From an uncultured Mycoplasmatota bacterium (GTDB taxonomy: Bacteria; Bacillota_I; Bacilli_A; RF39; UBA660): 40,626 bases of DNA. Below, piece after piece: positions 6,652 through 23,261 of this stretch. The stretch is taken from assembly GCA_948466395.1 (NCBI GenBank), contig CAOKAG010000009.1, positions 1 to 40,626 on the forward strand, read 5' to 3'. Position 1 is the stretch's first letter. Each line of letters opens with the position of its first letter. Under the pieces are notes generated by a model. It had not been told where the DNA came from. It saw nothing but the letters and a program-made list of their open reading frames with translations, and did no database searches. The translations under genes were made by a program, and so were the position numbers.

Positions 6652-6658
6652 CATAACT

Positions 6659-8179: not shown

Positions 8180-8258
8180 ATTACACCTCCATCTTACATG
8201 ATATTATTTTCTCATGTATGTTTTAAAATGATGGTATCTTCAAACGCTACTTTTGTGA

Positions 8259-8264
8259 TATAAT
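8259..8264 (+). promoter_or_regulatory. extended -10 promoter
   Basis: TGATATAAT (TATAAT at 8259-8264) lies upstream of the small membrane peptide and zinc-ribbon genes. No convincing -35 is seen. Confidence 0.5.
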
Positions 8265-8326
8265 GGATGTGATAATACTTTTTTTAGAAGAAAAACTTAT
8301 CATTGAATAGAAAGGAGTTAAATTTT

Positions 8327-8500: not shown

Positions 8501-8507
8501 TAATATT

Positions 8508-8603
8508 ATGATATTGTTATTTACTTTGGAGATTGTATTAGTTGTTCTATTTATTGAAAGATTAGTTCCGACATGTATTGAAAAACTAGTTTGGAACAAT
8601 TAA
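8508..8603 (+). CDS. possible 31-residue hydrophobic peptide
   Basis: A short frame, MILLFTLEIVLVVLFIERL followed by VPTCIEKLVWNN, follows the previous gene by seven bases. It has one membrane-spanning stretch, but no clear ribosome binding site. It could be a coupled small membrane peptide or chance. Confidence 0.25.
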   Translation: MILLFTLEIVLVVLFIERLVPTCIEKLVWNN

Positions 8604-8656
8604 TTGGTAATGAATATTTTTATTGTTTTATAAAGAAAGGAAAAACTGGTGATTTT

Positions 8657-9184
8657 ATGGCATTAATTAAATGTGTTGAGTGCGGAAAAGATATTAGTGA
8701 TACAACTGACATATGCATTCATTGTGGTGCACCGACTTCTATTTCACTTCAAGGCAATGGCAATGTTAGCAACAGGTCGAAAAGACATAATAAGCATAGT
8801 ATCTTTATTCTTATTGTTCTGTTTGTATTCATTTTTGTAATTCTTGTTATTTCATTTTTAACTACTTCAGCACATAAAGGTACATTATCTTCTAGTACGT
8901 TAAATGCTGAATACTCGGCACCTAAGTATGAATATGCTTTTGGTGATGCAATGAGAGAAACTTTTAAATTTAATGATGATGGTAAAGTAGTTTATCAATT
9001 ATGTAATGTTAAAACTGATGCTTGTGCGGATCCTCGTGCATATACTTATGAGAGATATGGATCAGATGTAAAAATTTATAGTTATGGTAGTGTACAATAT
9101 AATTGTTTTTTAAAGGATTCAGATACAATTTTACGTTGTGATGATACTGGTGGTACGTATCAAGATTACGCAAAGATTAAGTAA
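8657..9184 (+). CDS. zinc-ribbon membrane protein (paralogue 1)
   Basis: This 175-residue protein has an N-terminal zinc ribbon (CVECGKDISD...CIHCGAP, residues 6-26), a linker, one membrane segment (ILIVLFVFIFVILVISFL, about 55-75), and an extracellular part of about 100 residues with CNVKTDAC and YNCFL...LRCDD. The start at 8657 (MALIKC) is chosen because it matches the start of the next gene's product. The outer domain has no family I can name. The cytoplasmic zinc ribbon and outer domain suggest a sensor or membrane stress protein, which is inference. Confidence 0.72.
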   Translation: MALIKCVECGKDISDTTDICIHCGAPTSISLQGNGNVSNRSKRHNKHSIFILIVLFVFIFVILVISFLTTSAHKGTLSSSTLNAEYSAPKYEYAFGDAMRETFKFNDDGKVVYQLCNVKTDACADPRAYTYERYGSDVKIYSYGSVQYNCFLKDSDTILRCDDTGGTYQDYAKIK

Positions 9185-9213
9185 TATAAAATTAAGAGGG
9201 AGGAAAGAAAAAT

Positions 9214-9690
9214 ATGGCTTTAATTAAATGTAAAAGTTGTGGAGAGAAAATTAGTGATAAATCAACAAAGTGTGTTCATTGTGGTTATGAAACTAAATTT
9301 TCAATTGTATATATTTGTCCAGAATGTAAGCAGAAATTTGATAACACTATATGTAAAAATTGTGGTTATAGAAAGGTTACTGAAATAGAGAAAGATGCAA
9401 AAACTAATATTGCTGAAGTTGGTGTGATTATAAGAGGTTTATTCCCTGGAATTTTTATGGGAGCAGTTCTTGGATTTATTGTTTATATGGTATCTTCTGA
9501 AATGACAGATGGACCACTTCCAATTATTTTGACAATTGTTGCAGGTATTTTTGGTTTCTTTTATGGAATAGCTATTGATAGAAATCCGGATGCACAAGAA
9601 ATCTTTGATGATTATGCTATGTTTAATGCAAGTCCCAAAGAAAGAGCAATGTATAATCAATTAAAGCGAAATGGTAAAAATAAAAAATAA
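9214..9690 (+). CDS. double zinc-ribbon membrane protein (paralogue 2)
   Basis: This 158-residue protein starts MALIKCKSCGEKISD, nearly the same opening as the upstream protein. A first ribbon (CKSCG...CVHCG) is followed by a second (CPECK...CKNCG). Two membrane segments come next (GIFMGAVLGFIVYMVSS and LPIILTIVAGIFGFFYGIA), then a charged tail. AGGGAGGAAAG gives a strong RBS. It is probably co-transcribed with paralogue 1. Function is unknown. Confidence 0.75.
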   Translation: MALIKCKSCGEKISDKSTKCVHCGYETKFSIVYICPECKQKFDNTICKNCGYRKVTEIEKDAKTNIAEVGVIIRGLFPGIFMGAVLGFIVYMVSSEMTDGPLPIILTIVAGIFGFFYGIAIDRNPDAQEIFDDYAMFNASPKERAMYNQLKRNGKNKK

Positions 9691-9761
9691 AGTGATATAA
9701 GTTTTATATTAGTTTTTCTCAAATCATGGTATATTAAAATATAGTTAAGGAGGTTATTATC

Positions 9762-10733
9762 ATGGCGAAGAAGATTGGTTTTAAGAAAATAGTAACTAAT
9801 ATTCCTTATGATTCGTTTATATCTCAGATTGATAGTCTTTTAGGAAAAGTTAAAAACGTTACTCTTGATGTTAGTATTGTATCTAAGAAGATTTATGAAG
9901 AAGAAGATTATATGTATGTTCTTCTAACTATATTTGATTCTAGTGGAGAGATGTCTGCTCTATTAGTTGGTAATAGAGATGTAGAATTTCAAACACTAGT
10001 ACAAGATATTAAGATTGGATTAAAATATAGAGTTGTTGGTAATGTTTCTATGGTAGATGATTCATTTGATGAGAAGTTACTTTTTGAAGATGAAATTAGC
10101 GGAGATAAATTGTTCTGTATCTATGCTATACAAAATTATAATCATACTACATTTGGTATAGATATGGATGAGTTTCATAGTAGTATGGATCTTGATGAAC
10201 AATATAATGTAATAACAAAATATACTGATTATCTTAAAAACATTCCTGTTGATATGGTTGAGGATATAGTAGTTTCTTGCTATCAAGAGGTAGTTATATT
10301 ATTAAAGGATGGTACTGCTTTTGTAAATGGTAAGAAGATACTTGATGATGTTAAATATATTACTCTTATTGATATCCGAACTATTTGTGCGATTGGTGCT
10401 GATAGGACTATTACTTGTTTAACGAAAAAAGGAAGGTGTGGGCATGACTTTATAAATGATAACAACTACCACTATAAGAAGATTGTTTTTACCGAGTTTG
10501 GTATTGCTGCTTTAACATATGAAAAGACAGTTAAGTATTATGGAGATTTTAATTTTGGTGCAATTGACTATTCACGTTTCATGGATGTTGACGATATAGG
10601 TTTAATTGGTGATTCTGATGATATTATCGTTGTTAAGGGTGATAAGGTTTATTCATTATTTTTGTATTCTCCTACTGTTAATGTTTCTGATATCAATGTA
10701 GAGGATTATTTACATGGACGTTGGATTATATAA
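9762..10733 (+). CDS. PolC-type OB-fold protein with repeat C-terminal domain
   Basis: This 323-residue protein has residues 33-110 (VTLDVSIVSKKIYEEEDYM..., LLTIFDSSGEMSALL, GLKYRVVGNVSMVDD, ..LLFEDEIS) that follow the pattern of the OB domain at the front of PolC: GEVF..RELR, LFKITDY.., KGMWVKVRG, and LVMIANDI. The C-terminal half is rich in beta strands with recurring V-x-LKDGTAF, CLTKKGRCGH and KTVKYYGD units, resembling an RCC1/propeller pattern. The RBS AAGGAGG is strong. Its pairing with the PolC-derived protein downstream suggests the two act together. Function is unknown. Confidence 0.6.
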   Translation: MAKKIGFKKIVTNIPYDSFISQIDSLLGKVKNVTLDVSIVSKKIYEEEDYMYVLLTIFDSSGEMSALLVGNRDVEFQTLVQDIKIGLKYRVVGNVSMVDDSFDEKLLFEDEISGDKLFCIYAIQNYNHTTFGIDMDEFHSSMDLDEQYNVITKYTDYLKNIPVDMVEDIVVSCYQEVVILLKDGTAFVNGKKILDDVKYITLIDIRTICAIGADRTITCLTKKGRCGHDFINDNNYHYKKIVFTEFGIAALTYEKTVKYYGDFNFGAIDYSRFMDVDDIGLIGDSDDIIVVKGDKVYSLFLYSPTVNVSDINVEDYLHGRWII

Positions 10734-10765
10734 GAGAAAAAAACAAAGACTAAGGAGGATAATGT

Positions 10766-11839
10766 ATGTTAGAGAAGTATGAGCATTTAAATATGAATGC
10801 AAAGATATATTTATTTGATGAACTTAAGGAAAAATTTTTTCTTAAATATAAGAATTTAGATTTATTTAGAAGATGTAATAAAGAACTTGATCTACTATAT
10901 GATAAGGGTTTGTTATTCCTTATTGAGATATTTTACAAATATAAGGAATATCACTCTCGCTTACCTATTTCTTATCACTTTAGGGGTACAATTAATAATT
11001 TGTTGTTATTGTATGTATTAGATATAACCGATGTAGATCCGATAAAATATAATTTACCTTATGAATTATTTAATGATTCTACTATTTGCGTGGATTTAAT
11101 TCATGCTATTCCACTTGATTTTTTATCATATGTTGGTCGAAATTATTATGATGAACTTAGATTTGTTTATGGTACACACGAAAAGGAAGATATAGAAGAG
11201 ATAAATGCTTTTGAAGATAACCATTATTTATTAATTCCATTTTTTGGGTATAAGGATAGTAAAGATTGTCCTATGCTTAAAGATATTTCACTTAGATTAA
11301 ATGAAGATTTAATACTCGAGACAGTTGATGATTATAGAAAGTATAAAGATGAATTTTTAACGATAAGAGTTGATGAAAAGCAACCTATAAGCGATTATGA
11401 AGAAAAGGGTTTGGGTAATGTACTTACTAATGATTTTGAAAAAGAAATTGCGGAGATATTGCAACCTAAGACCATAAGGGATTATATCAAAGTAAAAAGC
11501 ATAGGGCATGGTACTGATGTTTGGAACTATAATCAAGATGCATTAGTAGCTGAGGGAAAAATAACTCTTGAGAACCTGATAGCCACTCGTGAAGATATAC
11601 TGGAGTATCTGTTAGATCACTCTATTGATAGGGATATGGCTTTAGAGATGCTTAATTTTATTCGCAAAGGTCGAGCGAAGAAAGATCCTACGAAATGGGA
11701 TGAGTATGTAGGTATTATGAAAGAACATAATTGCGAGGATATGTTTATAGATATCTTCTCGAAGATTCTGTTCATATTTGGTAGAGGTCAAGCAGTTAGT
11801 GAGTGCTTATTTGTTGTAGATGAAAATAATTATATATAG
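10766..11839 (+). CDS. catalytically dead PolC-like protein
   Basis: This 357-residue protein is clearly derived from the polymerase III alpha subunit PolC. Residues 72-92 (FRGT...DITDVDP) match the PolC stretch RGSVGSS...ITEVNP. Residues 236-253 (TIRDYIKVKSIGHGTDVW) match the PolC motif with SGLSHGTDVW. Residues 268-303 (LENLIATREDILEYLL... and MLNFIRKGR) match SEVIGCRDDIMVYLI and IMESVRKGK. The catalytic PDID is reduced to CVDL (108-111). The bulk of the palm, including the G-T-I-G-T-V region, is missing. The PHP and exonuclease domains are also absent. It may mimic or bind polymerase partners. Confidence 0.8.
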   Translation: MLEKYEHLNMNAKIYLFDELKEKFFLKYKNLDLFRRCNKELDLLYDKGLLFLIEIFYKYKEYHSRLPISYHFRGTINNLLLLYVLDITDVDPIKYNLPYELFNDSTICVDLIHAIPLDFLSYVGRNYYDELRFVYGTHEKEDIEEINAFEDNHYLLIPFFGYKDSKDCPMLKDISLRLNEDLILETVDDYRKYKDEFLTIRVDEKQPISDYEEKGLGNVLTNDFEKEIAEILQPKTIRDYIKVKSIGHGTDVWNYNQDALVAEGKITLENLIATREDILEYLLDHSIDRDMALEMLNFIRKGRAKKDPTKWDEYVGIMKEHNCEDMFIDIFSKILFIFGRGQAVSECLFVVDENNYI

Positions 11840-11970
11840 GATTCAATTTGATATACGAGAAATGATAGAAATATGGATTTAGATTTTATTTGTACATTAT
11901 CCTAATGAAAACGATTGAGATGATGACTGATGGTGAATTTAACAGGTATTTAACTATTGAATAAAGAAAT

Positions 11971-12000
11971 AACGAGCAGGTGATATAAAATCTGCTCGTT
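11971..12000 (+). terminator. bidirectional terminator
   Basis: AACGAGCAG (11971-11979) pairs perfectly with CTGCTCGTT (11992-12000). It lies between the convergent PolC-like and HEPN-like genes. The preceding 130 bases hold nothing else I can identify. Confidence 0.8.
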
Positions 12001-12027
12001 AAATTTATAGTTGTTTTTTCCACATAA

Positions 12028-12942
12028 TTATTTTGTCTTTGAGTAAACCCAAAACAAAATACTATCTATCAGTCTTAATGAAAACAGTGCATCTTCCATG
12101 GTTGGTATTTCTTGTGTTGATTCATTTCTATGTGTTCCATAATCAGATAGCATACTGTAAATCATATATATAGTTTTTGTTTTGGTAAGTTTTCCCGATT
12201 TATTTTCATAAAAAAACTCCGCCAAATCCTCTTTCTTTAACTCTACCTTTAATGCATTTGATAAATCTTTTAATGAAGCTACTGCTGCATCTCCACTTAT
12301 ATTATAAATACCTCGCACCCATTGTGCAAATGCATCTGTACCCTGGTACTTTGAAAAAATACTAACTAAACATGTCCTGCAAGATTCAATGCATGCACCA
12401 GCATCGCCTTGAGTATAGGAGTTAATAGCTGACTCATATGCATCATATACCTCTTTATGATTTGCCTCTAACCAATATTCCACCGAAAATACGTCTTGTA
12501 CTCTTTGTAAGTTACTTTCCATACAAACACTAACTTTTATTTTGTCATATTCCAAATAAAGGCTTAAGCCAAGTAATTCATAAAGATTTGCAAGTTCATT
12601 AAATTCTTCTTCATAATGCTCTGCAATAAATGGTACATTAAATGCTTTTGTCAATTCTTTCAATAAACTAATTATTTCATTACTTTTATCTTCAGAATAC
12701 AAATCAGAAAAAATACTATCCATTCCTAAAAACACATCATATTCTACATTTTGATTCTCAAACTTCAAAGAATCTCCATCTTTGTAAAAATATGGTATAA
12801 GATATCGTTCATATTTGTCGAAATATTCTCCTAATCCAACACATTTTAATGACGCTTTTAACACAGAATTTTTCTTATATATAAAATTATTTAAATTCAG
12901 TGTTCTTGCAATCATTGATAAAATTATTTCTTTTCGATTCAC
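12028..12942 (-). CDS. HEPN-like / abortive-infection-type protein
   Basis: This 304-residue protein has a C-terminal half that looks like an Abi-type HEPN domain: an amphipathic helix AINSYTQGDAGACIESCRT, then the late motif DYGTHRNES and the helix ALFSLRLIDSILFWVY. HEPN proteins in defence systems are often RNases. The exact R-x4-6-H motif is not clear here, so activity is uncertain. The N-terminal half (to about 145) has no recognised fold. It is the last gene of a three-gene minus-strand set. The A+T codon use is like the neighbours. Confidence 0.62.
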   Translation of the reverse strand: MNRKEIILSMIARTLNLNNFIYKKNSVLKASLKCVGLGEYFDKYERYLIPYFYKDGDSLKFENQNVEYDVFLGMDSIFSDLYSEDKSNEIISLLKELTKAFNVPFIAEHYEEEFNELANLYELLGLSLYLEYDKIKVSVCMESNLQRVQDVFSVEYWLEANHKEVYDAYESAINSYTQGDAGACIESCRTCLVSIFSKYQGTDAFAQWVRGIYNISGDAAVASLKDLSNALKVELKKEDLAEFFYENKSGKLTKTKTIYMIYSMLSDYGTHRNESTQEIPTMEDALFSLRLIDSILFWVYSKTK

Positions 12943-12980
12943 GCACTAATCACTCCTAACTTGTAATTTGAATTATCTTT

Positions 12981-13472
12981 TTAATCTAATGAATAATAAT
13001 TATAATATTTTGTAATTATTTCATCAGCAAATTTTAGTTGTTCTTCTTCTTTCCATTCCTCCCAATAATCTGCTAAATCTGTGATTTTAGTTTTTGATGG
13101 TGCTTTCCCAATATCTGGCTGAAACTCCCACAAAAACTCATCATAATCTGTTGTTGCTCCTCTAACATCAATATATATTTCTTTCCCACTATACTCAGAG
13201 ATACAGCACCAGTGAACCATAGTACCAGACTGACTTCTCAGTTCTAAAATATCATAACCAAATTTTTGATGTAATACATATGCGAATATATGGCATATAC
13301 CATGTAAAAAATTATTTGCTTCATAATAAATACAATCCCCATTTTTAAATACTTTTGCTGGATTAATACTTCTAATTTTTTCTAATTGTGTTCTAATATT
13401 ATCTTTGCCATTTTCATAAAAACCTTTATGAAAATAGTTGTTATTTGTTTGTGAAGTCATTTTAAAAATCAT
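12981..13472 (-). CDS. papain/transglutaminase-like protein
   Basis: This 163-residue protein shows the order Cys60 (HGICHIFAYVL), His87 (MVHWCCIS) and Asp102 (IYIDVRG), which fits a papain- or transglutaminase-like Cys-His-Asp triad. Such folds occur in peptidases, peptide N-glycanases and toxins. The start overlaps the end of the upstream gene by 11 bases, so the two are coupled. No RBS is obvious, which supports coupling. I cannot name the family; peptidase or toxin activity is an inference. Confidence 0.6.
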   Translation of the reverse strand: MIFKMTSQTNNNYFHKGFYENGKDNIRTQLEKIRSINPAKVFKNGDCIYYEANNFLHGICHIFAYVLHQKFGYDILELRSQSGTMVHWCCISEYSGKEIYIDVRGATTDYDEFLWEFQPDIGKAPSKTKITDLADYWEEWKEEEQLKFADEIITKYYNYYSLD

Positions 13473-13806
13473 TAAAGTTTGTAGCTATGTATTCAGCTAA
13501 CTGTCCTTCTGTCATATTATTCATCATTTCAGTTTCTTGTTCAATTATTAAATCCTTTGGGCTTTTTGTTGTGTTTTCTTGCATTTCTTGATAATATTCT
13601 TCTAACTCTTTTCTTTCTAATAATGTGTATTCATCAAGCACACCACCAAGTTCCCAATCTCTTATATTTCGTTCATCTAAAAAAGCTTTATGTTTTAGAT
13701 CCCAATACTTCTTTTTTATTTCTTGTATTTTTGTATCTTTTATTTCAGAAATTTGACTTGAATTCATTTCACAATTATATTTATCTAGGAATTCTTCTTT
13801 TGTCAT
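13462..13806 (-). CDS. coiled-coil protein, first gene of the HEPN set
   Basis: This 114-residue charged, helical protein (EIKDTKIQEIKKKYWDLKHKA, LLERKELEEYYQEMQ) has no membrane segment or known motif. It heads the three-gene minus-strand set and overlaps the papain-like gene. Size and position would suit an antitoxin or adaptor, but that is only a guess from context. The RBS AAAGTGAGATG precedes the ATG. Confidence 0.58.
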   Translation of the reverse strand: MTKEEFLDKYNCEMNSSQISEIKDTKIQEIKKKYWDLKHKAFLDERNIRDWELGGVLDEYTLLERKELEEYYQEMQENTTKSPKDLIIEQETEMMNNMTEGQLAEYIATNFNDF

Positions 13807-14063
13807 AAAATCATCTCACTTTCAAATGTTTGTTAGTTCTATTATATCATAGTTTGGAGTGGTTCATATATGGGATTTCTTTTAATACTTAATTATAGTT
13901 ATAAAGTGTTGCAATAATTTCTTTATTAAGGTATTAAAACAATGTGTCAAGAAACATTTGTTAAGTGGGTACTCATTTTGTCACTATTTTTTATGGATTT
14001 TAGGCCTAATTTAGTGCTAAAATGTTCCATTTACTACAAATAGGTTTCTTGGGTCAGGAAGGA

Positions 14064-14672
14064 ATGGTTAATTTGGAATATTTATATGCACGTTGTAGTA
14101 CTAACGAGGAAAGGCAGAACCTACTTCGCCAAATTAAGTTTGGTGAAGCTCATGGTGTTAAACCGGAGAATATGTTTAAGGAGTATATCTCTGGTTCGAA
14201 AGATAAGAGACCTGAACTTGACAGATTGCTAAATATTGTTAAAGAGGGAGACACAATTTATTGTTCTTCTATCGATCGTCTTACTAGATCGCTTAAGCAC
14301 TTTATGTCACTAATTGAATTTGCTAAGGAGAAGAAGATTAAATTTGTTCTAGGTGATTTTGAAGTAGACTGTCGTGGTACGTTGTCAGCTTTGATGCAGG
14401 GACAATTATTGATGTTATCGATGGTGGCGGAAGTTATGAGATTGATGATAGTTGAAAGTGTTAATGATGGTTTGGCTGCTGCTCGATCTGAGGGACGCAT
14501 TGGTGGGCAACCTAAGTTAACTCGTGATAGAATTTACAAGAAGAACCCTGATGTTGCTAAATATTACATTGAGTATAATGAGAAGAGAATTAATTTTACA
14601 GAGTTCTGTAGGTTATGTCAGATTGGACGCAACACAGGGTATCGCTATTTAAAGGTTCTAAAGACATCATAA
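14064..14672 (+). CDS. small serine recombinase (resolvase/invertase)
   Basis: This 202-residue resolvase has YARCST with nucleophile Ser12, the arginine motif IDRLTRS (Arg72, Arg75), then the E helix and a C-terminal HTH (FTEFCRLCQIGRNTGYRYL). All catalytic positions are present, so it is probably active. It acts through Ser-DNA intermediates at res or inversion sites. The start at 14064 (MVNLEYLYAR) is preferred over 14022 on domain length. GAAGGA lies directly before it, a little close. The repeat region at 15841-16249 is a possible target. Confidence 0.9.
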   Translation: MVNLEYLYARCSTNEERQNLLRQIKFGEAHGVKPENMFKEYISGSKDKRPELDRLLNIVKEGDTIYCSSIDRLTRSLKHFMSLIEFAKEKKIKFVLGDFEVDCRGTLSALMQGQLLMLSMVAEVMRLMIVESVNDGLAAARSEGRIGGQPKLTRDRIYKKNPDVAKYYIEYNEKRINFTEFCRLCQIGRNTGYRYLKVLKTS

Positions 14673-14698
14673 TTTGTGGTTTAATGTTAAGTTAAATT

Positions 14699-14731
14699 AA
14701 AAGAAGTTACTTTGTATGGGTAGCTTCTTTT
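14699..14731 (+). terminator. bidirectional terminator
   Basis: AAAAGAAGTTAC (14699-14710) pairs with GTAGCTTCTTTT (14720-14731), one mismatch, with A- and T-rich flanks. It lies between the convergent resolvase and zinc-finger genes. Confidence 0.8.
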
Positions 14732-14743
14732 CCTATGGTAAAA

Positions 14744-15820
14744 TTATTTTTTACTAGATTGATAATTTCTTTGGTTGTCATAGCTTTTTGCTTCATCTTC
14801 TTTTTCTCCACCTGGTCTGTGTAGTATACATCGTTTGTATTGTTGCTCTTTTTCAAACTCATTTATACAATAAGGTACATTACACATTCTGCGTTCATAA
14901 CTAAATTCTGTAGCAGTAGAGTTCAAAAGTAGTTTATCATAAGCTATTCCCATTAATGAATTTGAAATTCTATAGACTCTATATTGTTCACTGCCTTCAT
15001 TAAATACTGGTTTTTGTTTTGTTAGTTGATATTGTTCTTTGTATCTACCATTAATATGATTTGTGATGTATAGCATTAGACTTCTTTGCAAGATAGTGAA
15101 GAATTTATCATTATAGTTGTTAATTGGTTCTTCTGTTCCTTTATCCATAGGACCATATTCTAGCACCTGAATTATTTCTAATTTATCAAACTTATCTAAT
15201 ATTTGTTTATTTTCGACTTCCATTACAATAGCAATTAGTTCTGGTTTTAGCATATTGTACAAAGTTATAAATTTAGGATCTATTGGCAACTCATATCCAT
15301 CTTTTAAATCTTGTTTTGTTTTAAAATTCCATTTTCTAACTTCATCAATTAAATATACCATTATACATTCGACTATGAATTCTTCATATTGTGGGTGTGG
15401 AATGTTATCCTCTAGTAAATATGGATACCCATACTTTTGAATGTACTCGTTGAAAATTTTTTTTAATGACTTGGATATATTAGGATCTATAAAGCAACTA
15501 TCGATTAAGTAGTTTAGTGATTTATCTTTCTGTTTTGATTTTATCAATTTAAATAGTTGTTTACCTGTCATGTAGATGGAGGTAAAAACGTCATTTCCAT
15601 TTCTTATAACATACTCTATTGTATCAAATCCATTATCGTTTTTAGCATTGTAACCACCATTACCATACCAATTGCAAGCTTGAATTATATCATCTTGTGG
15701 GTATTCTTTTAGTAAATAGTTCAATTTGATTAAGATTACGTCGTTTTTGTCAAATGTATCATCAGCAGTGTCATTATCATCTATAGTAATCAGTTCGTTT
15801 TTATCAATTAAATTTTCCAT
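14744..15820 (-). CDS. hypothetical protein with C-terminal zinc finger
   Basis: This 358-residue protein has an acidic N-terminus, a long helical middle, and a Cys/His cluster near the C-terminus: RRMCNVPYC followed about 13 residues later by RCILH, which resembles a CGNR-type treble-clef zinc finger. The gene starts right beside the three-module repeat region and is divergent from the pseudo-resolvase/RecA operon. That position would suit a replication-initiator or other repeat-binding protein, but no Rep motif is visible, so this is speculation. The tail is basic and polar. Confidence 0.6.
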   Translation of the reverse strand: MENLIDKNELITIDDNDTADDTFDKNDVILIKLNYLLKEYPQDDIIQACNWYGNGGYNAKNDNGFDTIEYVIRNGNDVFTSIYMTGKQLFKLIKSKQKDKSLNYLIDSCFIDPNISKSLKKIFNEYIQKYGYPYLLEDNIPHPQYEEFIVECIMVYLIDEVRKWNFKTKQDLKDGYELPIDPKFITLYNMLKPELIAIVMEVENKQILDKFDKLEIIQVLEYGPMDKGTEEPINNYNDKFFTILQRSLMLYITNHINGRYKEQYQLTKQKPVFNEGSEQYRVYRISNSLMGIAYDKLLLNSTATEFSYERRMCNVPYCINEFEKEQQYKRCILHRPGGEKEDEAKSYDNQRNYQSSKK

Positions 15821-15840
15821 GTTTTGTTCCTTTCATTGAG

Positions 15841-16249
15841 ATTCAGAATTTTTCAGATTTTTCGTATGTGTTTTTAAAATTTTACTTATGTTTTAATATT
15901 GTTGTACCCGAAAAATATCGAATATTTTTGGTCAAATAGTAACTATTATTCTAAACTTTTTATGAAATTTGTCAAGGTCATTTTGGAGATTTTCTACTAA
16001 TTAGGATAATTCAGAATTTTTCAGATTTTTCACTAATTTTAATTGAAGTTATTCTATGGGAAAATTTAACTGTGCCTGAAAAATATCAAAAGTTTTCAGT
16101 CGAATAATACTGTTATTTCGAATTATTTACCAGATTAGAGAAATTCAGAATTTTTCAGATTTTTCGACAATTTTATATTAGGTATTTATTAGGTATCATA
16201 TTTTTGTACCGGTGCAATAGTATCAAAAATTACTGCAGGTTTTTGATAC
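15841..16249 (+). repeat. three-module repeat region (iteron/res-like)
   Basis: A 23-bp direct repeat starting ATTCAGAATTTTTCAGA occurs identically at 15841-15863, 16009-16031 and 16143-16165. Each copy is followed, 62 or 63 bases from its start, by TGTACCCG (15904), TGTGCCTG (16071) or TGTACCGG (16205). In modules 1 and 2 the next ~49 bases are also alike. Each module holds its own inverted repeat: AAAAATAT/ATATTTTT at 15911-15929, CTGAAAA/TTTTCAG at 16076-16099, and GTATCAAAAA/TTTTTGATAC at 16220-16249. The region separates the zinc-finger gene from the RecA operon and could be an origin, res-like site or partition site. No gene is seen here. Confidence 0.85.
16220..16249 (+). promoter_or_regulatory. 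putative operator before the RecA operon
   Basis: GTATCAAAAA (16220-16229) and TTTTTGATAC (16240-16249) form a perfect 10-bp inverted repeat ending about 28 bases before the first ATG. It is the inverted repeat of module 3. A protein-binding role is inferred. Confidence 0.5.
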
Positions 16250-16277
16250 AAATTTAAAATGACAGGAGATGAATATT

Positions 16278-16763
16278 ATGTATGGTCTTGTAAATGATCA
16301 ATACAAAGTCGATGGTATAGACTTTAAAAAATTACCACTAAAGGTAGCATGTTATGCTAGAACAAGAAGTTATTATATTGAAGATGAGGGATTTGAAAAA
16401 ATAATTGCTTCTATGCAAGATTTTATTGAAAAGGAAACCTCATGGAAACTAGTTGATATCTATAGTGATTCCAGAGACGTGAGTGTATTTAACCAAAACG
16501 AATTTCAAGAATTGTTAGAAGAATCGGGTTATAAGTTTGATGTTATCGTTGTACCAGATTTTTTTCACATAACAGAAAGCAGAACACTAGCTGAATACAT
16601 TTTTTGGGAAACTGAACTTGCTGAAAATCATGTACCAATTTTCTCTATAGAAGATGGAATTATGATCAGTGGTCGTCCCAAATATACAAAAGAAAATTTA
16701 CTTGAGTGTGATTATAGAGTGGAAGTAGAGAAACAAGAGAATGAAGGAGGATCTTTATGTTAG
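16278..16763 (+). CDS. pseudo-serine-recombinase 1
   Basis: This 161-residue protein follows the serine recombinase N-terminal domain: LKVACYART (the YARxS strand), WKLVDIYSD, FQELLEESGYKFDVIVVPDFFHI, and VPIFSIEDG. The catalytic serine motif is altered to ARTRS, the SRL.R arginines are replaced by FFHITES, and there is no DNA-binding domain, so catalysis is unlikely. The second ATG (16278) is chosen because AGGAG is nine bases upstream. The next gene is a close paralogue (V-x-G-x-DFK-x-L start). It is the first gene of a seven-gene operon. Confidence 0.7.
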   Translation: MYGLVNDQYKVDGIDFKKLPLKVACYARTRSYYIEDEGFEKIIASMQDFIEKETSWKLVDIYSDSRDVSVFNQNEFQELLEESGYKFDVIVVPDFFHITESRTLAEYIFWETELAENHVPIFSIEDGIMISGRPKYTKENLLECDYRVEVEKQENEGGSLC

Positions 16764-17203
16764 AAGATAAATTTGTAGTCAATGGTAGTGACTTTAAAAA
16801 TTTACTGTTAAGAGCGGGATATTACGCTAGAACCTTAGGATTCGATCATGATGAAAGACTTGAGACAATAGTTCGTTGTATAAAGGATTTTGTTAGCAAA
16901 GAAACATCTTGGAATCTAGTTATTGGTTATGAGGATAACAATTGTTCTAGTAGATGTATGTGCGAGCAAGTAGAACTTAGAGAAATGTTAGAAGATGCTT
17001 ATGCACCTGATTCATTTGATATCATAGTTGTTACTAATTTTTCTCAAATTGCAAGAAATAAGGTAATTATTGATTACTTATTGGAAGATGGCACACTTAA
17101 AGTTCCGGTGTTTTGCATAGAGACAGGAACTCTAGTTACTAATGATCCTGACAATATAGCGGATAAACTTATTGAGAAGGAGTTGAATAATAGTGAAGAA
17201 TAA
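16757..17203 (+). CDS. pseudo-serine-recombinase 2
   Basis: This 148-residue paralogue of the preceding protein shares VNGSDFKNLLLRAGYYART, ETSWNLV, FDIIVVTNFSQIARN and VPVFCIETG. The SRL.R motif is partly kept as FSQIARN, but the nucleophile Ser is missing after YART. There is no C-terminal DNA-binding part. GAAGGAGG gives a strong RBS, and the ATG overlaps the end of gene 1 by seven bases. It is likely an inactive partner or DNA/protein-binding subunit, not a recombinase. Confidence 0.7.
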   Translation: MLEDKFVVNGSDFKNLLLRAGYYARTLGFDHDERLETIVRCIKDFVSKETSWNLVIGYEDNNCSSRCMCEQVELREMLEDAYAPDSFDIIVVTNFSQIARNKVIIDYLLEDGTLKVPVFCIETGTLVTNDPDNIADKLIEKELNNSEE

Positions 17204-18275
17204 CAAAAATATTAAAAGTAGTTTGAGAGAACTGGCTAGTTCTCTCCCTAATTACTTTGCTGATCCCGTTCAGACAGGTGTTTATCCAATTGATAAGTTA
17301 CTTAATGGTGGAATAGATCTTGGTACATTTGTGCAATTAATTGCTGAACCTGGGATTGGAAAGTCTACTATTGCACTTCAAGTTGCTAAGAATTTATGTA
17401 GTCAAGGATATAATGTTTTGTATGTTGATAGTGAGCATTCTGTTTCTAGAGAAACACTAACTTCTATTGGTCTTTTCAACTATAAGGACAAGTTTTTTCT
17501 AGTAAAAGAATCAGAGTTTGCTTCTGTGGAAAAGGTTTTAGATGATTTTATTCTTACTGAAGAGATAAATTTTGTTGTTATTGATTCGATGGCTTGTCTA
17601 ATAAACCCTTGTTTTACGAATATTGGCTCTAAGAAAGGATCTATCTCAGTTACTACCAATAATAGTAATTATATGAGTGGTCCAATGAATAAGTTTATGA
17701 GCAAATACAAATCTTTGGCTGCTAAATATAATATTGGGTTCATTGTAATAAATCAAAATCGTAATTCAGTGAACATGACAACAGGAACGATACTTAAAAT
17801 GTATGGTCCTAAAAATGTTGAGTATGATACGGATACAATTATTAGAATCAAACCTATTAAGGCAACTATTTTAAAAGATTTTAAAGAATTAACTAAGGAT
17901 GTTGTTGGAGGGAATGCTTTATCATTTGAGATTGTTAAGAGTAATAAAGCAGAACCTAATGCTGTCTGTCCTGGTTACCTAATGTATGGTAGAGGTATTT
18001 CTAATTTGTGGACTTATATTTACCAATTGAAAAAAAATGGGGTTATAGAACAAAAAAGCACTTTTTACACTCTAGATTATCATGGAGTTTCAATTAAAGG
18101 ACAAGGTATATTAAACTTTGCCAAAAGTTTAAAAGAAAATAATATATCTGAAGAAAATCTTAAAGAGCTAATAGACTCTATGGATGGAACAACTGATTGC
18201 ATAGAAGTTGATGTTAGCAGTGATGATTCAGATGATGATTTTGAGTTCGAATATGAGATTTCGAAGGTGGAATAA
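17193..18275 (+). CDS. RecA-like ATPase
   Basis: This 360-residue RecA-fold ATPase has Walker A AEPGIGKST (51-59), Walker B FVVIDS with Asp131, IGFIVINQNR (the L2/sensor strand), and GTILKMYG and a later VVGGNALSFEIVKSNKAEP, which matches the RecA GGNALKFYAS...R region. It begins with GTG and AAGGAG. It lacks the full RecA C-terminal domain and ends with an acidic DSDDDFEFEYE tail. It probably binds DNA or forms filaments; strand exchange is not certain. It is embedded among six pseudo-resolvases and overlaps both neighbours. Confidence 0.85.
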   Translation: MKNNKNIKSSLRELASSLPNYFADPVQTGVYPIDKLLNGGIDLGTFVQLIAEPGIGKSTIALQVAKNLCSQGYNVLYVDSEHSVSRETLTSIGLFNYKDKFFLVKESEFASVEKVLDDFILTEEINFVVIDSMACLINPCFTNIGSKKGSISVTTNNSNYMSGPMNKFMSKYKSLAAKYNIGFIVINQNRNSVNMTTGTILKMYGPKNVEYDTDTIIRIKPIKATILKDFKELTKDVVGGNALSFEIVKSNKAEPNAVCPGYLMYGRGISNLWTYIYQLKKNGVIEQKSTFYTLDYHGVSIKGQGILNFAKSLKENNISEENLKELIDSMDGTTDCIEVDVSSDDSDDDFEFEYEISKVE

Positions 18276-18724
18276 TGAAACGTTATGCATACTTTCGTTA
18301 TCCATACGATAGAAAATGGCATTATAACGATGAATATGAGTATCGTCGTACTGGATATGGGTTTTCATGTAATATGCCAGATAGAAGATGGTATAACAAG
18401 TTTTATGGGTTGCCATATATCACTAAGTTTTATTTTGATTATTCTTTGGAAAATAAAAGATTTTGTAAGTTGATCAATGAAATTATGGATTATGGTGATA
18501 TTTTATTCATTTCTGAAATTACTGAGTTAAGTTGTGGTAGAGAGTTTCTCATTGATTATTTAGTACAAATTAATTCTGCAGGTATTAACTTATTTGTTAT
18601 GAGAGATTGGGTTGATATTGATTCGACGATTGAAATGTTAAGTAACATGGAAGATGAGGAATTTGGGAACTTATCTATTTTAGAACCGAAGAAGTTATAT
18701 GTTATGGAGGAGGAAGAAAAATGA
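18275..18724 (+). CDS. pseudo-serine-recombinase 3
   Basis: This 149-residue protein starts at an ATG whose A is the last base of the RecA stop (TAATG), so it is coupled. MKRYAYFRYP stands at the YARVS strand. YGDILFISEITELSCGREFLID and AGINLFVMRDWVDID align with the active resolvase's GDTIYCSSIDRLTRS...KKIKFVLGDFEVDC. The catalytic Ser and the D-R-L-x-R motif are gone. It has no DNA-binding domain. It is rich in aromatic and basic residues near the start. Confidence 0.6.
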   Translation: MKRYAYFRYPYDRKWHYNDEYEYRRTGYGFSCNMPDRRWYNKFYGLPYITKFYFDYSLENKRFCKLINEIMDYGDILFISEITELSCGREFLIDYLVQINSAGINLFVMRDWVDIDSTIEMLSNMEDEEFGNLSILEPKKLYVMEEEEK

Positions 18725-19098
18725 AATATGAGTATTTTTTAACAACAATAATAGAACCAGAGTGTTCTAAGTTTAGGCCAATATTTACTTTGGATGATTT
18801 AAAGAAAAAGTCGGAGGCTAACATTATCTATTTTGATGATGTTGACAATAGATTTCAATTGAGAGTGTTATTAGGGAAGATAGAACCATGTTCTAGTCTG
18901 TATGTTTTATCATTACATGATTTAGGATGTACACCAAGAGAAATTATACAAATACTAAAAAGAGTATTTGAGTATCATATCAGTTTATTCATTTTGGGTG
19001 ACCAAGTGGATATTTACGCGACTATAGATGAATTGGAAGAAAAATATTCAGATAATCTTGATCAGCATATAGATGATGAAGATTATCTAATGATGTGA
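18721..19098 (+). CDS. pseudo-serine-recombinase 4
   Basis: This 125-residue protein overlaps the previous gene by ATGA. It has MKYEYFLTT at the first strand, SSLYVLSLHDLGCTPREI in the position of the SRL.R strand and helix, and HISLFILGDQVDIYATID after it. It is the same fold pattern as the neighbours and has lost all catalytic residues. It is acidic at the C-terminus. It is likely to have arisen by duplication within the operon, followed by fast divergence. Confidence 0.58.
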   Translation: MKYEYFLTTIIEPECSKFRPIFTLDDLKKKSEANIIYFDDVDNRFQLRVLLGKIEPCSSLYVLSLHDLGCTPREIIQILKRVFEYHISLFILGDQVDIYATIDELEEKYSDNLDQHIDDEDYLMM

Positions 19099-19106
19099 GG
19101 TGTATT

Positions 19107-19505
19107 ATGATATACGGTTACTTTACTAGGATTTTACCAAGACATTTAGAGGAATACGAGTTTCTACCACCTCTAGAAGATTACTTTGAGGTAATACATA
19201 GCATTACACCATTGGATAAAGTGGTTTATGACACCAATTCTAATAGGTTTCATCTAAAACAACTTGTTAATACTATATGCTGTGAAAATAAACCTTGTAA
19301 GATTCAGATGTTGAGTTTGTTTAACATAGGAAGACATGCCAAAGATATAACGTTGTTTCTTCTAAATTTACCAAAAAATGTCGAACTTTACCTTTTTGAT
19401 GATAAGGTTGATATTTATAGAACGATTGAGCATATTTGCACAAAGTATTGGTCTATCCATGATCTCATTACTTGTGATGATTATATAAAGGTAAAGACAT
19501 CCTAA
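19107..19505 (+). CDS. pseudo-serine-recombinase 5
   Basis: This 132-residue protein starts at an ATG with GAGGTG upstream; a GTG at 19095 is less likely because the paralogues start directly at the M-K-Y-G-Y-F-like strand. It has MIYGYFTR, then CKIQMLSLFNIGRHAKDI, then VELYLFDDKVDIYRTIEHI, matching gene 4 (VDIYATIDEL). No catalytic serine or arginine pair remains. Confidence 0.58.
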   Translation: MIYGYFTRILPRHLEEYEFLPPLEDYFEVIHSITPLDKVVYDTNSNRFHLKQLVNTICCENKPCKIQMLSLFNIGRHAKDITLFLLNLPKNVELYLFDDKVDIYRTIEHICTKYWSIHDLITCDDYIKVKTS

Positions 19506-19506
19506 T

Positions 19507-19890
19507 ATGAAGTATGGTTATTTTAACTCTGGTGGGGCTGTATGGAACGGATGGTTAGGAGTATCATATAATTTCTTGAAGAACGTTGGAGCTGATGTTA
19601 TCTATTATGATCATGGTAAAAACAAAAGTCTGTTTTGGAATAGTATGTTGAAGAAGTTAAAAGCAAATGATGTCTTGTATATACAACACCTATATGATTT
19701 GGATCCAAAGAAAAGAGATCGTGTTATAATTGACCGACTGAAGAAATTAAAGGAACTAAAGGTTATAGTTTTCATAAGTGATTACAGTGGTATTTTTCAA
19801 GAGATTGATATAGAAAAAGACAGTTTTCTTGAAATCAAGAAGAAACTTATTTATACTCCAAGGTTTAAGACTATTTGGTATAGTTGCTAA
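19507..19890 (+). CDS. pseudo-serine-recombinase 6
   Basis: This 127-residue protein starts one base after the previous stop. MKYGYFNSGG is the first strand; NDVLYIQHLYDLDPKKRDRV and LKVIVFISDYSGIFQEID match the middle part of the family. It is diverged and inactive by sequence. It is the last gene of the operon, followed by a structured noncoding region. Confidence 0.55.
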   Translation: MKYGYFNSGGAVWNGWLGVSYNFLKNVGADVIYYDHGKNKSLFWNSMLKKLKANDVLYIQHLYDLDPKKRDRVIIDRLKKLKELKVIVFISDYSGIFQEIDIEKDSFLEIKKKLIYTPRFKTIWYSC

Positions 19891-19891
19891 A

Positions 19892-20041
19892 GTGCTAGGC
19901 CATTTATATGGTCGGACCAGACAAGCAGTCCTTAGTAGCCATAAGTCTTGTAATAATAACAATAGTAATAGTAGTAACAATAAGAAGAATAATACTAAGA
20001 CTATTATTAAAAAGAGAAAAGACGGAGACAGATACATTTAG
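19892..20041 (+). other. Asn-codon-rich low-complexity stretch, possible small ORF
   Basis: A GTG-started frame of 49 residues covers a run of AAT/AAC/AGT codons (19953-20003) and ends KKRKDGDRYI. There is no ribosome binding site. The first part also holds two short hairpins (CCAT/ATGG and GGAC/GTCC). It may be a small coding gene, a decayed end of gene 6, or a structured RNA. I cannot decide. Confidence 0.25.
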
Positions 20042-20076
20042 TCTTTTCTAATAACTAATTTATTAGATTAGTCGTT

Positions 20077-20179
20077 GATGGATTTTCTAAAAACTTTGGA
20101 TTCTTTGCTGGTGGTACTGTAGACTGTGTGTTCTATGGATGCTAGTGGTGCTGTAGTTCAAAGTTTTTAGGAGACCATC
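20077..20179 (+). other. long-stem inverted repeat with internal direct repeats
   Basis: GATGG (20077-20081) and CTAAAAACTTTG (20087-20098) pair with CAAAGTTTTTAG (20159-20170) and CCATC (20175-20179). The 60-base loop holds two near-identical 16-mers, GCTGGTGGTACTGTAG (20107-20122) and GCTAGTGGTGCTGTAG (20141-20156). A smaller dyad TCTAATA/TATTAGA lies just before. This looks like a structured RNA or a recombination/transfer site. It is the main content of the 450-base gap before the small ORF and recombinase. Confidence 0.55.
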
Positions 20180-20337
20180 TAATGATTAGTGAATTCTATC
20201 AGATTTTTATGTTGGTGTGTACAGTTAATTGTGTTCACATATGATCCAGAAATATTAGCTAAAAGGTAGTAATTATTATTGATTGGATTCATTATAGGCT
20301 TGAGTAATGAATAAGATGTAAGGAAAGAGGTTTAAAA

Positions 20338-20430
20338 ATGAGTTCAGAAAATGTTGATAAATTAAAAGAAATAATACTTTCATACTTAATAGAGGAATTA
20401 AATAATATGAAAGGAGACAAATCTACTTAA
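20338..20430 (+). CDS. 30-residue peptide before the recombinase
   Basis: A short frame (MSSENVDKLKEIILSYLIEE...) has a good RBS (AGGAAAGAGG) and ends just before or within a terminator hairpin. It is predicted to form one amphipathic helix. Short ORFs in this place occur in some integrative elements and could regulate the recombinase or act as a directionality factor. This is inference from position. Confidence 0.5.
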   Translation: MSSENVDKLKEIILSYLIEELNNMKGDKST

Positions 20431-20449
20431 ATAGGTTTGTTAATTTTTT
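20417..20449 (+). terminator. terminator or attenuator before the recombinase
   Basis: ACAAATCT (20417-20424) pairs with AGGTTTGT (20433-20440) (one G-T pair), followed by TAATTTTTT. It overlaps the end of the 30-residue ORF and lies about 60 bases before the recombinase start. It could control read-through into it. Confidence 0.7.
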
Positions 20450-20506
20450 AATAAATGGTATTATTTAATAGTCTATATAGCGATATGTAATTGAGAAGGA
20501 GGAATA

Positions 20507-22198
20507 GTGTATAGCAATTACATGTTGGATATCCAATTTTATATTGGAATTTATATAAGACTATCTCAAGAAGACAAAGATAAAGATAAGAAGTATGAAA
20601 ACGAAAGTGAAAGTGTTATTAATCAAAGGGCCATAATCAACGAGTATATAGATAGAAATTATTTGAGTAAATTCACTAATTATGTAGTTGTTGATACATA
20701 TGTTGATGATGGATATTCAGGAACTGATTTTGATAGACCAGATTTCCAGCGATTGCTTGGCGATATTAAAAAGAAAAGAATCAATATGATAATCGTAAAA
20801 GATTTATCTAGATTAGGTAGAGACCATGTAATGACTGGATATTATATGGAAAATTTCTTTCCAGAAAATCAAATAAGATTTGTATCCATATTAGATGGAT
20901 ATGATAGTTTTATGAATCAAGCTAGTAATGATTCATCTACATTTATTGTAGCTTGTAATGATTATTATAGTAAGCAGAATTCTATTAAGATTAGAAATGT
21001 TTTAAATAACAAGAGAAGTAATGGCAAATTTATAGGTAGTGCACCTAGCTTTGGGTATATGAGAGATCCTGAAGACAAAGGACATCTTATTCCAAATCCA
21101 GAAACAGCCCCAATTGTTAAAGAAATATTTAAAATGGCTGAACGAGGAATTGGAGTGTCAGAAATTACAACAACTCTTAATGAAAAAGGATATGTGACAC
21201 CTAGTGGTTATAAACAAACTAAATATTCAACAAGACTTGTTTTTAGAGATGATTGGAATATTTCTTCTGTTAAGAAAATTCTTTCTAATAGAATATATAC
21301 TGGTGATATGGTTCAACATACTCAAGCTAAAGTAAGTTATAAATCAAAAAAGAAAATTACTTTAGATCAAAGTTTATGGGTTATTGTGGAAGATACACAT
21401 GAACCTCTTGTTTCTAAAGAAACCTTCGAATTAATCCAGAATAGAAAGCAAAATAATAATAGAATTTGTAAGACAACTACTGAACGACCTATTCGTTTAT
21501 TTGAAGGGTTACTATACTGTAAAGAATGTGGGAATAGGTTAACTGTTACTTATAGAAAAAACCATGATTATTGGACTGTTAATTGTAATAGATATTCCCG
21601 AGATCCAATAAGAGGAAGGTGCTCTTCTCATTTCTTTCCATATGATTATTTGGAGGAACAACTGAAGAAGCATGTTAATACCATTTTATCTAAATATTTA
21701 AAACAATTTGATGTTAATGATTTAAATAAAGAAATTATAAATAGAGAAAAAGCTATAAATAATGATGGAAATAACAAAATCAAATCTTTGGAGAGTAGGA
21801 AAGTTAAAATCGTTGATAAGATGAATCATTTATATGATGATAGGCTGAATGGGAACATTTCCATTGAGTCATATAAAGAAATGGTTAAACCTTATGAATC
21901 TGAATTAAGTAAAATTAATCAGGAGATTGAAGGCGTTAAGGCCAATGTTCAGGAAGAAAAGAAGAACTTAAGTATGATTCCAGATTATACACAACAGATA
22001 AAACAACTTTTAGATTTGAATAAACCAAAGAGAGAGCTTTTATTATCTTTGATAGATAGAATAGAGATAGATGAAAATAGATTGATTACAATCAAATTTA
22101 AGTATGGAATTATTCCTAATTCAGAGTTTTATTATGAAGAAACAACTGGTCCAAGGAATCCATATGGTAAGAAAGGTAAATCTAGTGTTAAAAAATAG
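20507..22198 (+). CDS. large serine recombinase (integrase)
   Basis: This 563-residue recombinase of the TnpX/TndX-like class has catalytic Ser20 in YIRLSQED, NQRAIINEY, DGYSGTDFDRPDF, and DLSRLGRD (99-106). Next come a Recombinase domain (about 190-300), a zinc ribbon (CKECG at 338-342, then Cys near 360 and 375), a coiled coil (about 395-490), and a C-terminal domain. It starts at GTG with AAGGAGG four bases before; an ATG at 20522 is a less likely alternative. It integrates and excises the element at the AGGTG core. Its full length and intact motifs suggest it is active. Confidence 0.95.
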   Translation: MYSNYMLDIQFYIGIYIRLSQEDKDKDKKYENESESVINQRAIINEYIDRNYLSKFTNYVVVDTYVDDGYSGTDFDRPDFQRLLGDIKKKRINMIIVKDLSRLGRDHVMTGYYMENFFPENQIRFVSILDGYDSFMNQASNDSSTFIVACNDYYSKQNSIKIRNVLNNKRSNGKFIGSAPSFGYMRDPEDKGHLIPNPETAPIVKEIFKMAERGIGVSEITTTLNEKGYVTPSGYKQTKYSTRLVFRDDWNISSVKKILSNRIYTGDMVQHTQAKVSYKSKKKITLDQSLWVIVEDTHEPLVSKETFELIQNRKQNNNRICKTTTERPIRLFEGLLYCKECGNRLTVTYRKNHDYWTVNCNRYSRDPIRGRCSSHFFPYDYLEEQLKKHVNTILSKYLKQFDVNDLNKEIINREKAINNDGNNKIKSLESRKVKIVDKMNHLYDDRLNGNISIESYKEMVKPYESELSKINQEIEGVKANVQEEKKNLSMIPDYTQQIKQLLDLNKPKRELLLSLIDRIEIDENRLITIKFKYGIIPNSEFYYEETTGPRNPYGKKGKSSVKK

Positions 22199-22246
22199 TA
22201 ATTACTCTTGTACCGCAGATTTGGAATATGTGAAACGACAGTAAAC

Positions 22247-22291
22247 TGCATTCCTGTTCAACTAATTATGATTGTGTAGAGCAGGAGTGCA
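22247..22291 (+). terminator. inverted repeat after the recombinase, probable terminator
   Basis: TGCATTCCTGTTC (22247-22259) pairs with GAGCAGGAGTGCA (22279-22291) with two G-T pairs; A- and T-rich sequence with TTTTTT follows. It may terminate the recombinase transcript. It also lies near attR, so a recombinase-related role is possible. Confidence 0.5.
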
Positions 22292-22314
22292 ATTAATATT
22301 ATTTTTTCATCACA

Positions 22315-22350
22315 ACAAGGATACTTCCGCAGGTGGCGATGGAGCTGAGG
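22315..22350 (+). other. attR, right attachment junction
   Basis: The core AGGTG is at 22331-22335. The left arm CAAGGATACTTCCGC (22316-22330) is the inverted copy of the arm at attL. The right side continues in amidase sequence (GCGATGGAGCTGAGG). Confidence 0.88.
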
Positions 22351-23261
22351 TTATTTATTCGTTACGTAATAGTGATCGACTATCAAGTATTATTAGCGAT
22401 AATATGAGTGCAGCTGGACAAAATGTACGAAAGTATTATCAAAGAAGATTACCAAGTAATCCAGATTTAGATTACTATTATATTCTTCGTGAAACTCCTA
22501 GTAATGAATCTATCATAGTGGAATATGGGTTTGCGGATAGTACAGGTGATGATGTTAATCAACTTAAAAATAATTGGCAAGATTTAACTGAAGCAGTGGT
22601 TAAATCGCTGGCTGAATATATGGGAGTGCCTTATAAACCGATTGTTAGCGCAGATTCTTATATTGTAAAATCAGGAGATACCTTATGGAGTATTGCTCGA
22701 AATAATGGTTTAACAGTGGATGAACTTAAACGCATCAATAATTTATCTAATAATGCTTTAAGTATCGGTCAAGTCTTGAAATTGAAATCTACTAGTGGTG
22801 GAGGCGAAACGTATACTGTTAAGTCAGGTGACACCCTTTATAATATTGCTAATCGATTTGGATTAAGCGTATCAGAATTAAAAAGTATGAATGATTTATC
22901 AACGAATAATTTAAGTATTGGTCAAGTTTTGAAAGTGAAAAAAAACACTTCTGCGCCAGAAGAAAATAATAAAGAATATTATATCGTAAAATCAGGAGAT
23001 AACTTATATAAAATTGCTAATATGTTTGATACCGATGTAAGTGAACTTAAAAGACTAAATAATTTAACCAATAATCTTTTAAGCATAGGTCAGAAGTTAA
23101 TTGTTCCATCAAGTAAAAATTATCAAGTATATACAGTAAAATCAGGAGATACACTTTATAGTATTGCTCGAGATTTTAATACTACTGTAAGTGGTATTCA
23201 AAATTTAAATAATTTAACTACTAGTAATTTATCAATTGGTCAAAAATTATTAATTCCATAA
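22336..23261 (+). pseudogene. N-acetylmuramoyl-L-alanine amidase, 3' fragment with four LysM domains
   Basis: The C-terminal half of the split amidase starts with the end of the zinc-binding domain (GDGAEVIYSLRNSD...), followed by the catalytic Glu region IVEYGFADS. Four LysM repeats of about 45 residues come next, each starting near VKSGD and ending SIGQ.L, which bind peptidoglycan. The coding part is intact to the stop and in frame with 64-316 when the element is removed. In the integrated state it has no start codon or RBS of its own that I can see. It would become part of a ~390-residue enzyme after excision. Confidence 0.88.

Follow-up and report, generated by a model that had tools for sequence, protein, structure and literature searches.

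An operon of predicted catalytically inactive serine-recombinase domains and a RecA-like ATPase on a mobile island of an uncultured Mycoplasmatota bacterium

The stretch analysed here, referred to as the window, comprises 40,626 nucleotides (nt) of contig CAOKAG010000009.1 (assembly GCA_948466395.1) from an uncultured Mycoplasmatota bacterium, a small-genome organism of gut type, and contains at positions 16278–19890 a tight operon of six short open reading frames (ORFs) and one RecA-like ORF, all on the + strand. The short ORFs (genes 1, 2 and 4–7) code for pseudo-recombinases, whilst gene 3 codes for the RecA-like ATPase. The six short proteins belong to the serine-recombinase catalytic-domain superfamily, as three independent routes agree (profile-profile comparison, PDB sequence profiles and fold searches), and are predicted from their residues to be catalytically dead and to consist of the catalytic domain only. 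They form two separate families, in which genes 1–2 descend, to judge from profile matches, from large serine recombinases (LSRs) and genes 4–7 from small resolvases. The operon lies on a mobile island that was inserted precisely in an amidase gene by an LSR.

Neighbouring genes of the operon overlap by 1–11 nt or are separated by gaps of 1–8 nt, and GGAG-type ribosome sites precede most of them. An earlier note on this DNA, made from the letters alone, had described the same gene order, strand and coordinates, with the RecA-like gene third and the genes overlapping or nearly touching, and the ORF list confirms all of this. Two starts are listed for gene 1 (16269/16278) and for gene 6 (19095/19107); the ribosome sites favour 16278, an ATG with AGGAG upstream, and 19107. 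The genes are as follows.

16278..16763, + strand: gene 1, pseudo-LSR catalytic domain (Ser to Arg, Arg68 to His), from Pfam, profile-profile comparison, active-site alignment and shuffled controls
16757..17203, + strand: gene 2, pseudo-LSR catalytic domain (Ser to Leu, Arg68 to Gln), from Pfam (5e-4) and an AF2 model (Z 11.5 to 3guv)
17193..18275, + strand: gene 3, RecA/UvsX-like ATPase with Walker A, Walker B, catalytic Glu and a loop-2-like motif, from PF00154 (E 2.8e-13) and PHROG 97 (2.9e-29)
18275..18724, + strand: gene 4, pseudo-resolvase, from paralogue matches, profile-profile comparison, active-site alignment and shuffled controls
18721..19098, + strand: gene 5, pseudo-resolvase, from profile-profile comparison and an AF2 model whose top matches in Foldseek and a second fold search are all serine recombinases
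19107..19505, + strand: gene 6, pseudo-resolvase, from the same four lines of evidence as gene 4
19507..19890, + strand: gene 7, pseudo-resolvase (frameshifted in a second genome, G079), from paralogue matches, active-site alignment and shuffled controls

Searched as single sequences, genes 1 and 2 matched Pfam Resolvase (E 0.0055 and 5e-4) and gene 5 did so weakly (0.057). Genes 1 and 2 are paralogues (35% identity, 2e-25), and genes 4–7 form a second group (1e-7 between genes 5 and 6, 2e-4 between 5 and 7, 3e-4 between 4 and 5). In profile-profile comparison genes 4–7 matched the small resolvases, represented by three resolvases of these genomes together with gamma-delta and a Hin-type sequence, at P 2e-7, which became P 4e-10 (probability 96.7%) with homologues from other genomes added and was still 1.6e-6 after gene 5 and the outside homologues were dropped; against LSRs the same profile gave 0.24, i.e. 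no match. Genes 1–2 matched LSR catalytic domains at 2e-6 (P 7e-8 and probability 94.6% with homologues) and small resolvases weakly (0.005). The best of 100 column-shuffled controls reached 0.07 for the genes 4–7 set and 0.023 for the genes 1–2 set, a RecA profile gave 0.14–0.58 and reversed profiles 0.3–0.45, and the shuffled and reversed controls exclude a chance resemblance to recombinases. Since each set matches a different recombinase class, a single common family for all six is excluded as well; the idea of pseudo-serine-recombinases around a RecA-like ATPase, put forward in the earlier note, is supported by profiles and folds, with two families in place of the one supposed.

Sequence-profile searches of the PDB returned Sin, gamma-delta and Tn3 resolvases as top matches for genes 4–7 (best E 0.0017) and two resolvase-family recombinases for genes 1–2 (7.6e-7 and 8.8e-5). 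The AF2 model of gene 2 (pTM 0.64) had TP901-1 integrase as its top Foldseek match, and in a second fold search, where 3guv was matched, rows 1–13 were all serine recombinases; the top fold matches are LSR or resolvase-family catalytic domains. The gene 5 model is poor and, the structure models being shallow, serves as support only, yet its first 27 Foldseek matches are serine recombinases, and the second fold search, with a Z of 8.1 to Sin, is dominated by small recombinases. Unrelated predicted folds, named beforehand as grounds for abandoning the idea, were thus not what the models of genes 2 and 5 gave.

In gamma-delta numbering, the Ser10 nucleophile and Arg68 are lost in all six pseudo-recombinases of the window, as had been claimed, and Arg71 is kept in genes 2 and 6 only. 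Arg68 is replaced by D, E or N in seven out of seven pseudo-resolvase sequences and by H or Q in the pseudo-LSRs; Arg8 is kept in genes 1 and 2 (in gene 4 this depends on the register), and the aspartate at position 36 is retained in all pseudo-resolvases. In the G079 homologue of gene 2, Ser10 is ambiguous, as a one-residue gap would restore R-I-S. The short proteins stop about where helix E begins, so that the dimer/tetramer helix and the DNA-binding domain are missing, and ORF ends, Pfam and alignment revealed no helix-turn-helix (HTH) or zinc domain in the six short ORFs. Because helix E and the DNA-binding domain are both gone, the non-catalytic synaptic complex proposed earlier, formed on DNA by the pseudo-recombinases alone, is unlikely; these missing parts and the mobile-island context go beyond what the earlier note had seen. 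Genes 1, 2, 4 and 5 have isoelectric points (pI) of 4.4–4.8, a range of 4.1–4.8 with the copy from another island (L128) added, and the basic exceptions are gene 7 (pI 9.5) and the copy from island L129.

Homologues of gene 3 share its Walker A and Walker B motifs, its catalytic Glu and a loop-2-like NQNRN...TTGT stretch; only the L018 protein departs from this, in that it lacks the catalytic Glu. By its core and ATP motifs gene 3 is of RecA/UvsX type, and its product is a candidate for ssDNA filament formation and strand exchange. It is not the host RecA, which lies on another contig and shares 26% identity with it.

The island that carries the operon is bounded and equipped as follows.

312..22335: whole mobile island, ~22.0 kb, with attL core AGGTG at 312–316 and attR core AGGTG at 22331–22335
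64..311, + strand: N-terminal part of the interrupted amidase-LysM gene (attB half), from joined-flank comparison
22272..23261, + strand: C-terminal part of the same gene (PF01520 and four LysM), in which the amidase sequence resumes from 22336
20507..22198, + strand: LSR, the island integrase; best NCBIfam CcrB (E 3.5e-35), under that family's cut-off
14022..14672, + strand: active small serine resolvase, start possibly 14067; PF00239 (E 1.9e-27), with Ser, Arg8, Arg68 and Arg71 intact

When the flanks are joined at the common AGGTG they give NHINAGGGDGAEVIYS, which is identical to the intact amidases L168 and L169, and the circular junction of the island ends forms the inverted repeat GGATACTTCCGC-AGGT-GCGGAGGTATCC, as expected for an LSR attP. 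The LSR is identical in DNA (synonymous divergence, dS, 0) between the window and G079, a genome of a different genus, against a dS of 0.96 for the flanking amidase, and the island therefore moved recently. An LSR at one end, the att cores, the restored empty site and the recent transfer together characterise an LSR-integrated mobile element. The operon occupies the slot between the small resolvase and the integrase; this resolvase, correctly named in the earlier note as an active neighbour, keeps its Ser, DRLxR and C-terminal part. Cargo elsewhere on the island includes a restriction-modification system (PF00145, PF09504), a Cro-type HTH protein and an IrrE-type protease.

We call the operon rare because ~193 genomes of the bacterial family and 385 of the order, all of them drafts, were searched. 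Conservation outside the window, the absence of which had been named as a second ground for rejection, does exist: G079 has the operon, on an island that occupies this amidase site too, and parts of it occur in other islands. In G079, genes 5 and 6 are identical to those of the window, gene 4 is 97% and the RecA-like gene 87% identical, and a single gene 2 homologue (43%) stands in place of genes 1–2. Over 17214–22635 of the window the two islands diverge stepwise, the LSR and genes 5–6 being identical, gene 4 at dS 0.10, the RecA-like gene at dS 0.37 and the upstream part at ~40% protein identity; since divergence grows the further one goes upstream from the LSR to the operon start, the islands are mosaics. 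Matches in G114 and G130 were dropped, one lying among host housekeeping genes and the other being an LSR fragment.

Members of both pseudo-recombinase families are also present on further mobile islands within this bacterial family, numbering one to six per island and highly divergent. They lie between resolvase and LSR, with no RecA-like gene, in L128 (110 amino acids), L129 (126 amino acids) and L131 (231 amino acids, LSR type), and a RecA-like gene stands beside an LSR with no pseudo-recombinases in L007, L017 and L018; altogether, an LSR and an element-encoded RecA-like ATPase occur together in five islands. Pseudo-resolvases of three islands are closer to each other (gene 5 and L129, 5e-8; gene 4 and L128, 5e-5) than to the local active resolvase, and they therefore represent a family and not repeated local decay. 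The pseudo-LSRs likewise match each other (L131 and gene 2, 2e-12), and the nearest active LSR to gene 2 is of the L129 type, not the resident integrase. When the window is compared with G079, the RecA-like gene has a ratio of non-synonymous to synonymous divergence (dN/dS) of 0.18, gene 4 of 0.17 (13 changes only) and genes 1–2, against their homologue, of ~0.5, with dS near saturation; for genes 5, 6 and the LSR, which are identical, it is uninformative. Substitution patterns thus point to purifying selection on the operon where measurable, and not to random decay. In L129, an 84-amino-acid C-terminal resolvase piece (8809–9063) directly precedes the pseudo-resolvase, which hints at the origin of the pseudo-resolvases.

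Elsewhere, islands carry Rep-like, DnaB-like or RecA-like proteins in the slot that separates resolvase from integrase, and their integrase can be of LSR or tyrosine-recombinase type, where the labels DnaB-like and tyrosine recombinase come from sequence reading and not from a family search; a replication or recombination role of the slot is therefore likely. Our tentative preference, held at somewhat less than an even degree of belief, is that the operon is the replication/recombination module of the island, in which the RecA-like ATPase acts on island DNA and the pseudo-recombinases set the timing and direction of recombination through protein contacts. The ATPase would act in copying, pairing or circularisation of the island. 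The pseudo-recombinases, which would bind no DNA themselves, could serve as stand-alone protein modules touching their active relatives (the resolvase and integrase) and/or the ATPase, and these contacts would set when and in which direction recombination occurs, for instance by keeping the enzymes in an inactive state or by biasing excision. By analogy, a replication role has a precedent in SCCmec, a staphylococcal cassette chromosome (SCC) element, where a replication operon of an ATPase and small accessory proteins lies directly upstream of the LSR genes (PMC7581432).

Two features lie between the active resolvase and gene 1.

14744..15820, − strand: divergent gene with a C-terminal Cys cluster, possible regulator; homologues in related islands (L006 7937–8971, L017 7785–8873, L156 6943–7893)
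15838..16166: direct repeats, three of 27 nt (15838, 16006, 16140) and two of 39 nt, just upstream of the operon

The repeats are candidate operators or iterons. In SCCmec the helicase binding motifs lie just 5' of the helicase's own gene or operon (PMC7581432), and the three 27-nt repeats could be their counterpart, or else an operator. A repeat search showed no such 27-nt repeats at the corresponding place in L006 and L017.

Several points weigh against the module we propose. We infer the interaction, expression and activity of the operon's products; the AF2 models have low to medium confidence (pLDDT 65 for gene 2, 51 for gene 5), and genes 4, 6 and 7 individually gave no match to Pfam Resolvase. 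Outside the window, the complete operon turned up only in G079, whose gene 7 carries a frameshift. RecA-like genes and pseudo-recombinases also occur apart, so that they may be functionally independent. With the helix E interface missing, contact with the active enzymes would need other surfaces, and the resemblance of the gene 1–2 pair to the L129-type LSR weakens the case for a partnership with the resident integrase.

A different partner is conceivable, if on balance improbable: the pseudo-recombinases may serve the RecA-like ATPase and not the recombinases, as small subunits that load, cap or recruit its filament in replication or pairing. The short genes share an operon with the ATPase gene and overlap on both sides of it, the ATPase retains Walker A/B and the catalytic Glu, and in SCCmec the small protein MP binds and activates a polymerase (PMC7581432); this partnership is nevertheless broken in both directions, by the three RecA-like/LSR islands that have no pseudo-recombinases and the three pseudo-recombinase islands that have no RecA-like gene. 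We regard it as unlikely that the pseudo-recombinases are decoys or anti-defence proteins aimed at recombinases of the host or of rival elements or at defence proteins, and so fast-evolving cargo within the operon. Their high divergence, variable number and mostly acidic character would suit such a role, as would the restriction-modification system on the same island, whereas their recurrent position between resolvase and LSR, the basic gene 7 and L129 copy, and a PADLOC search that gave no defence match worth keeping speak against it. That they are functionless, degenerate leftovers of duplicated recombinases is slightly less likely still, since the six ORFs are intact, mostly well spaced and provided with ribosome sites, the families span islands, gene 4 is constrained and Arg68 is consistently acidic or Asn in all pseudo-resolvases, even though islands of this kind duplicate and reshuffle recombinases, the L129 resolvase piece lies beside a pseudo-resolvase and gene 7 is frameshifted in G079.

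A more far-reaching reading, which we consider rather unlikely, makes a single machine out of the dedicated RecA-like ATPase and the dead catalytic domains of the two serine-recombinase classes, with synapsis, direction or replication of the island governed purely by protein contacts. If true, it would be a recombinase counterpart of the pseudokinases, so far unknown in serine recombination.

Further observations concern the island and its surroundings. The interval from the operon to the LSR gene contains an imperfect, strong hairpin of ~120 nt (20041–20240; the folded stretch has a z of −3.6), which is present in G079 and absent in L131; an Rfam scan of 13000–22400, the hairpin included, gave no match. 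Just 5' of the LSR, a 30-amino-acid ORF (MSSENVDKLKEIILSYLIEELNNMKGDKST, 20338–20430) is conserved in L131 and may code for a small peptide. The restriction-modification system (3220–6146) comprises a C5 methylase, a Bsp6I-type endonuclease (PF09504) and a 375-amino-acid gene between them. The amidase-LysM gene (22272–23261 of the window; relatives L159, L163, L166, L168 and L169) is an insertion hotspot, as several genomes of the genus have its ORF shortened at about the same place, often next to an LSR. Other RecA-like/LSR islands, L018 (4587–5367) and L017 (2431–3523), are apparently inserted in collagen-like genes with GPTG repeats.

A known phage or plasmid origin was rejected, as a DNA search of phage and plasmid collections gave no match. 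Viral contigs yielded generic phage RecA/UvsX relatives only and no pseudo-recombinases, the gene 5 protein had no match in phages, and the L128 pseudo-resolvase matched in plasmids mainly resolvase-family recombinases of staphylococci and macrococci. A defence system was also rejected, PADLOC giving weak matches to generic motifs only.

The pseudo-recombinase/RecA-like operon is undescribed in the open-licence papers and named databases searched, in agreement with the earlier note, whose author knew of no such system; these papers held no description of inactive or pseudo serine recombinases and no recombination directionality factor (RDF) made of a dead catalytic domain. Genes 4–7 share the fold and motif order of the small serine resolvases and invertases (gamma-delta, Tn3, Sin), but are without the Ser nucleophile, Arg68, helix E and HTH. 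Genes 1–2 have the catalytic fold of LSRs such as the TP901-1, PhiC31 and Bxb1 integrases, including the N-terminal LPLRV-Y region of the L129-type LSR, but lack the Ser nucleophile, Arg68, the recombinase domain and the zinc-ribbon domain. Gene 3 resembles phage UvsX/RecA in its RecA core, ATP motifs and loop-2-like stretch, and differs in its ~25% identity to RecA, in its place beside an LSR and pseudo-recombinases, and in that islands with a gene of this type have no phage structural genes in the part read.

Genome engineering counts serine recombinases among its main tools, and how to control the direction in which they act is a central problem. The pseudo-recombinases are comparable to the RDFs of serine integrases as small element proteins that could steer integrase direction; the phiC31 RDF gp3 is reported to bind the LSR zinc domain (PMC5814800). 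Dead recombinase domains retained and encoded beside active enzymes could be natural regulators; the papers searched describe none of this type.

In arrangement the island resembles the cch/ccr locus of SCC (PMC7581432), likewise an LSR-inserted element with an operon of an ATPase and small proteins directly upstream of the LSR, and CcrB is the best NCBIfam match of the island LSR. This LSR scores 121.7 bits against a CcrB cut-off of 900, and the operon upstream of it encodes a RecA/UvsX-like ATPase and not the MCM-like helicase Cch or Cch2, which places the island outside SCC. It also differs from SCC in having dead recombinase domains as accessory proteins, a small resolvase in addition, and the amidase gene as its target, not rlmH, the single insertion site of SCC elements. 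Since an element-encoded RecA-like ATPase accompanies an LSR in five islands, LSR islands other than SCC may also go through a step of replication or pairing.

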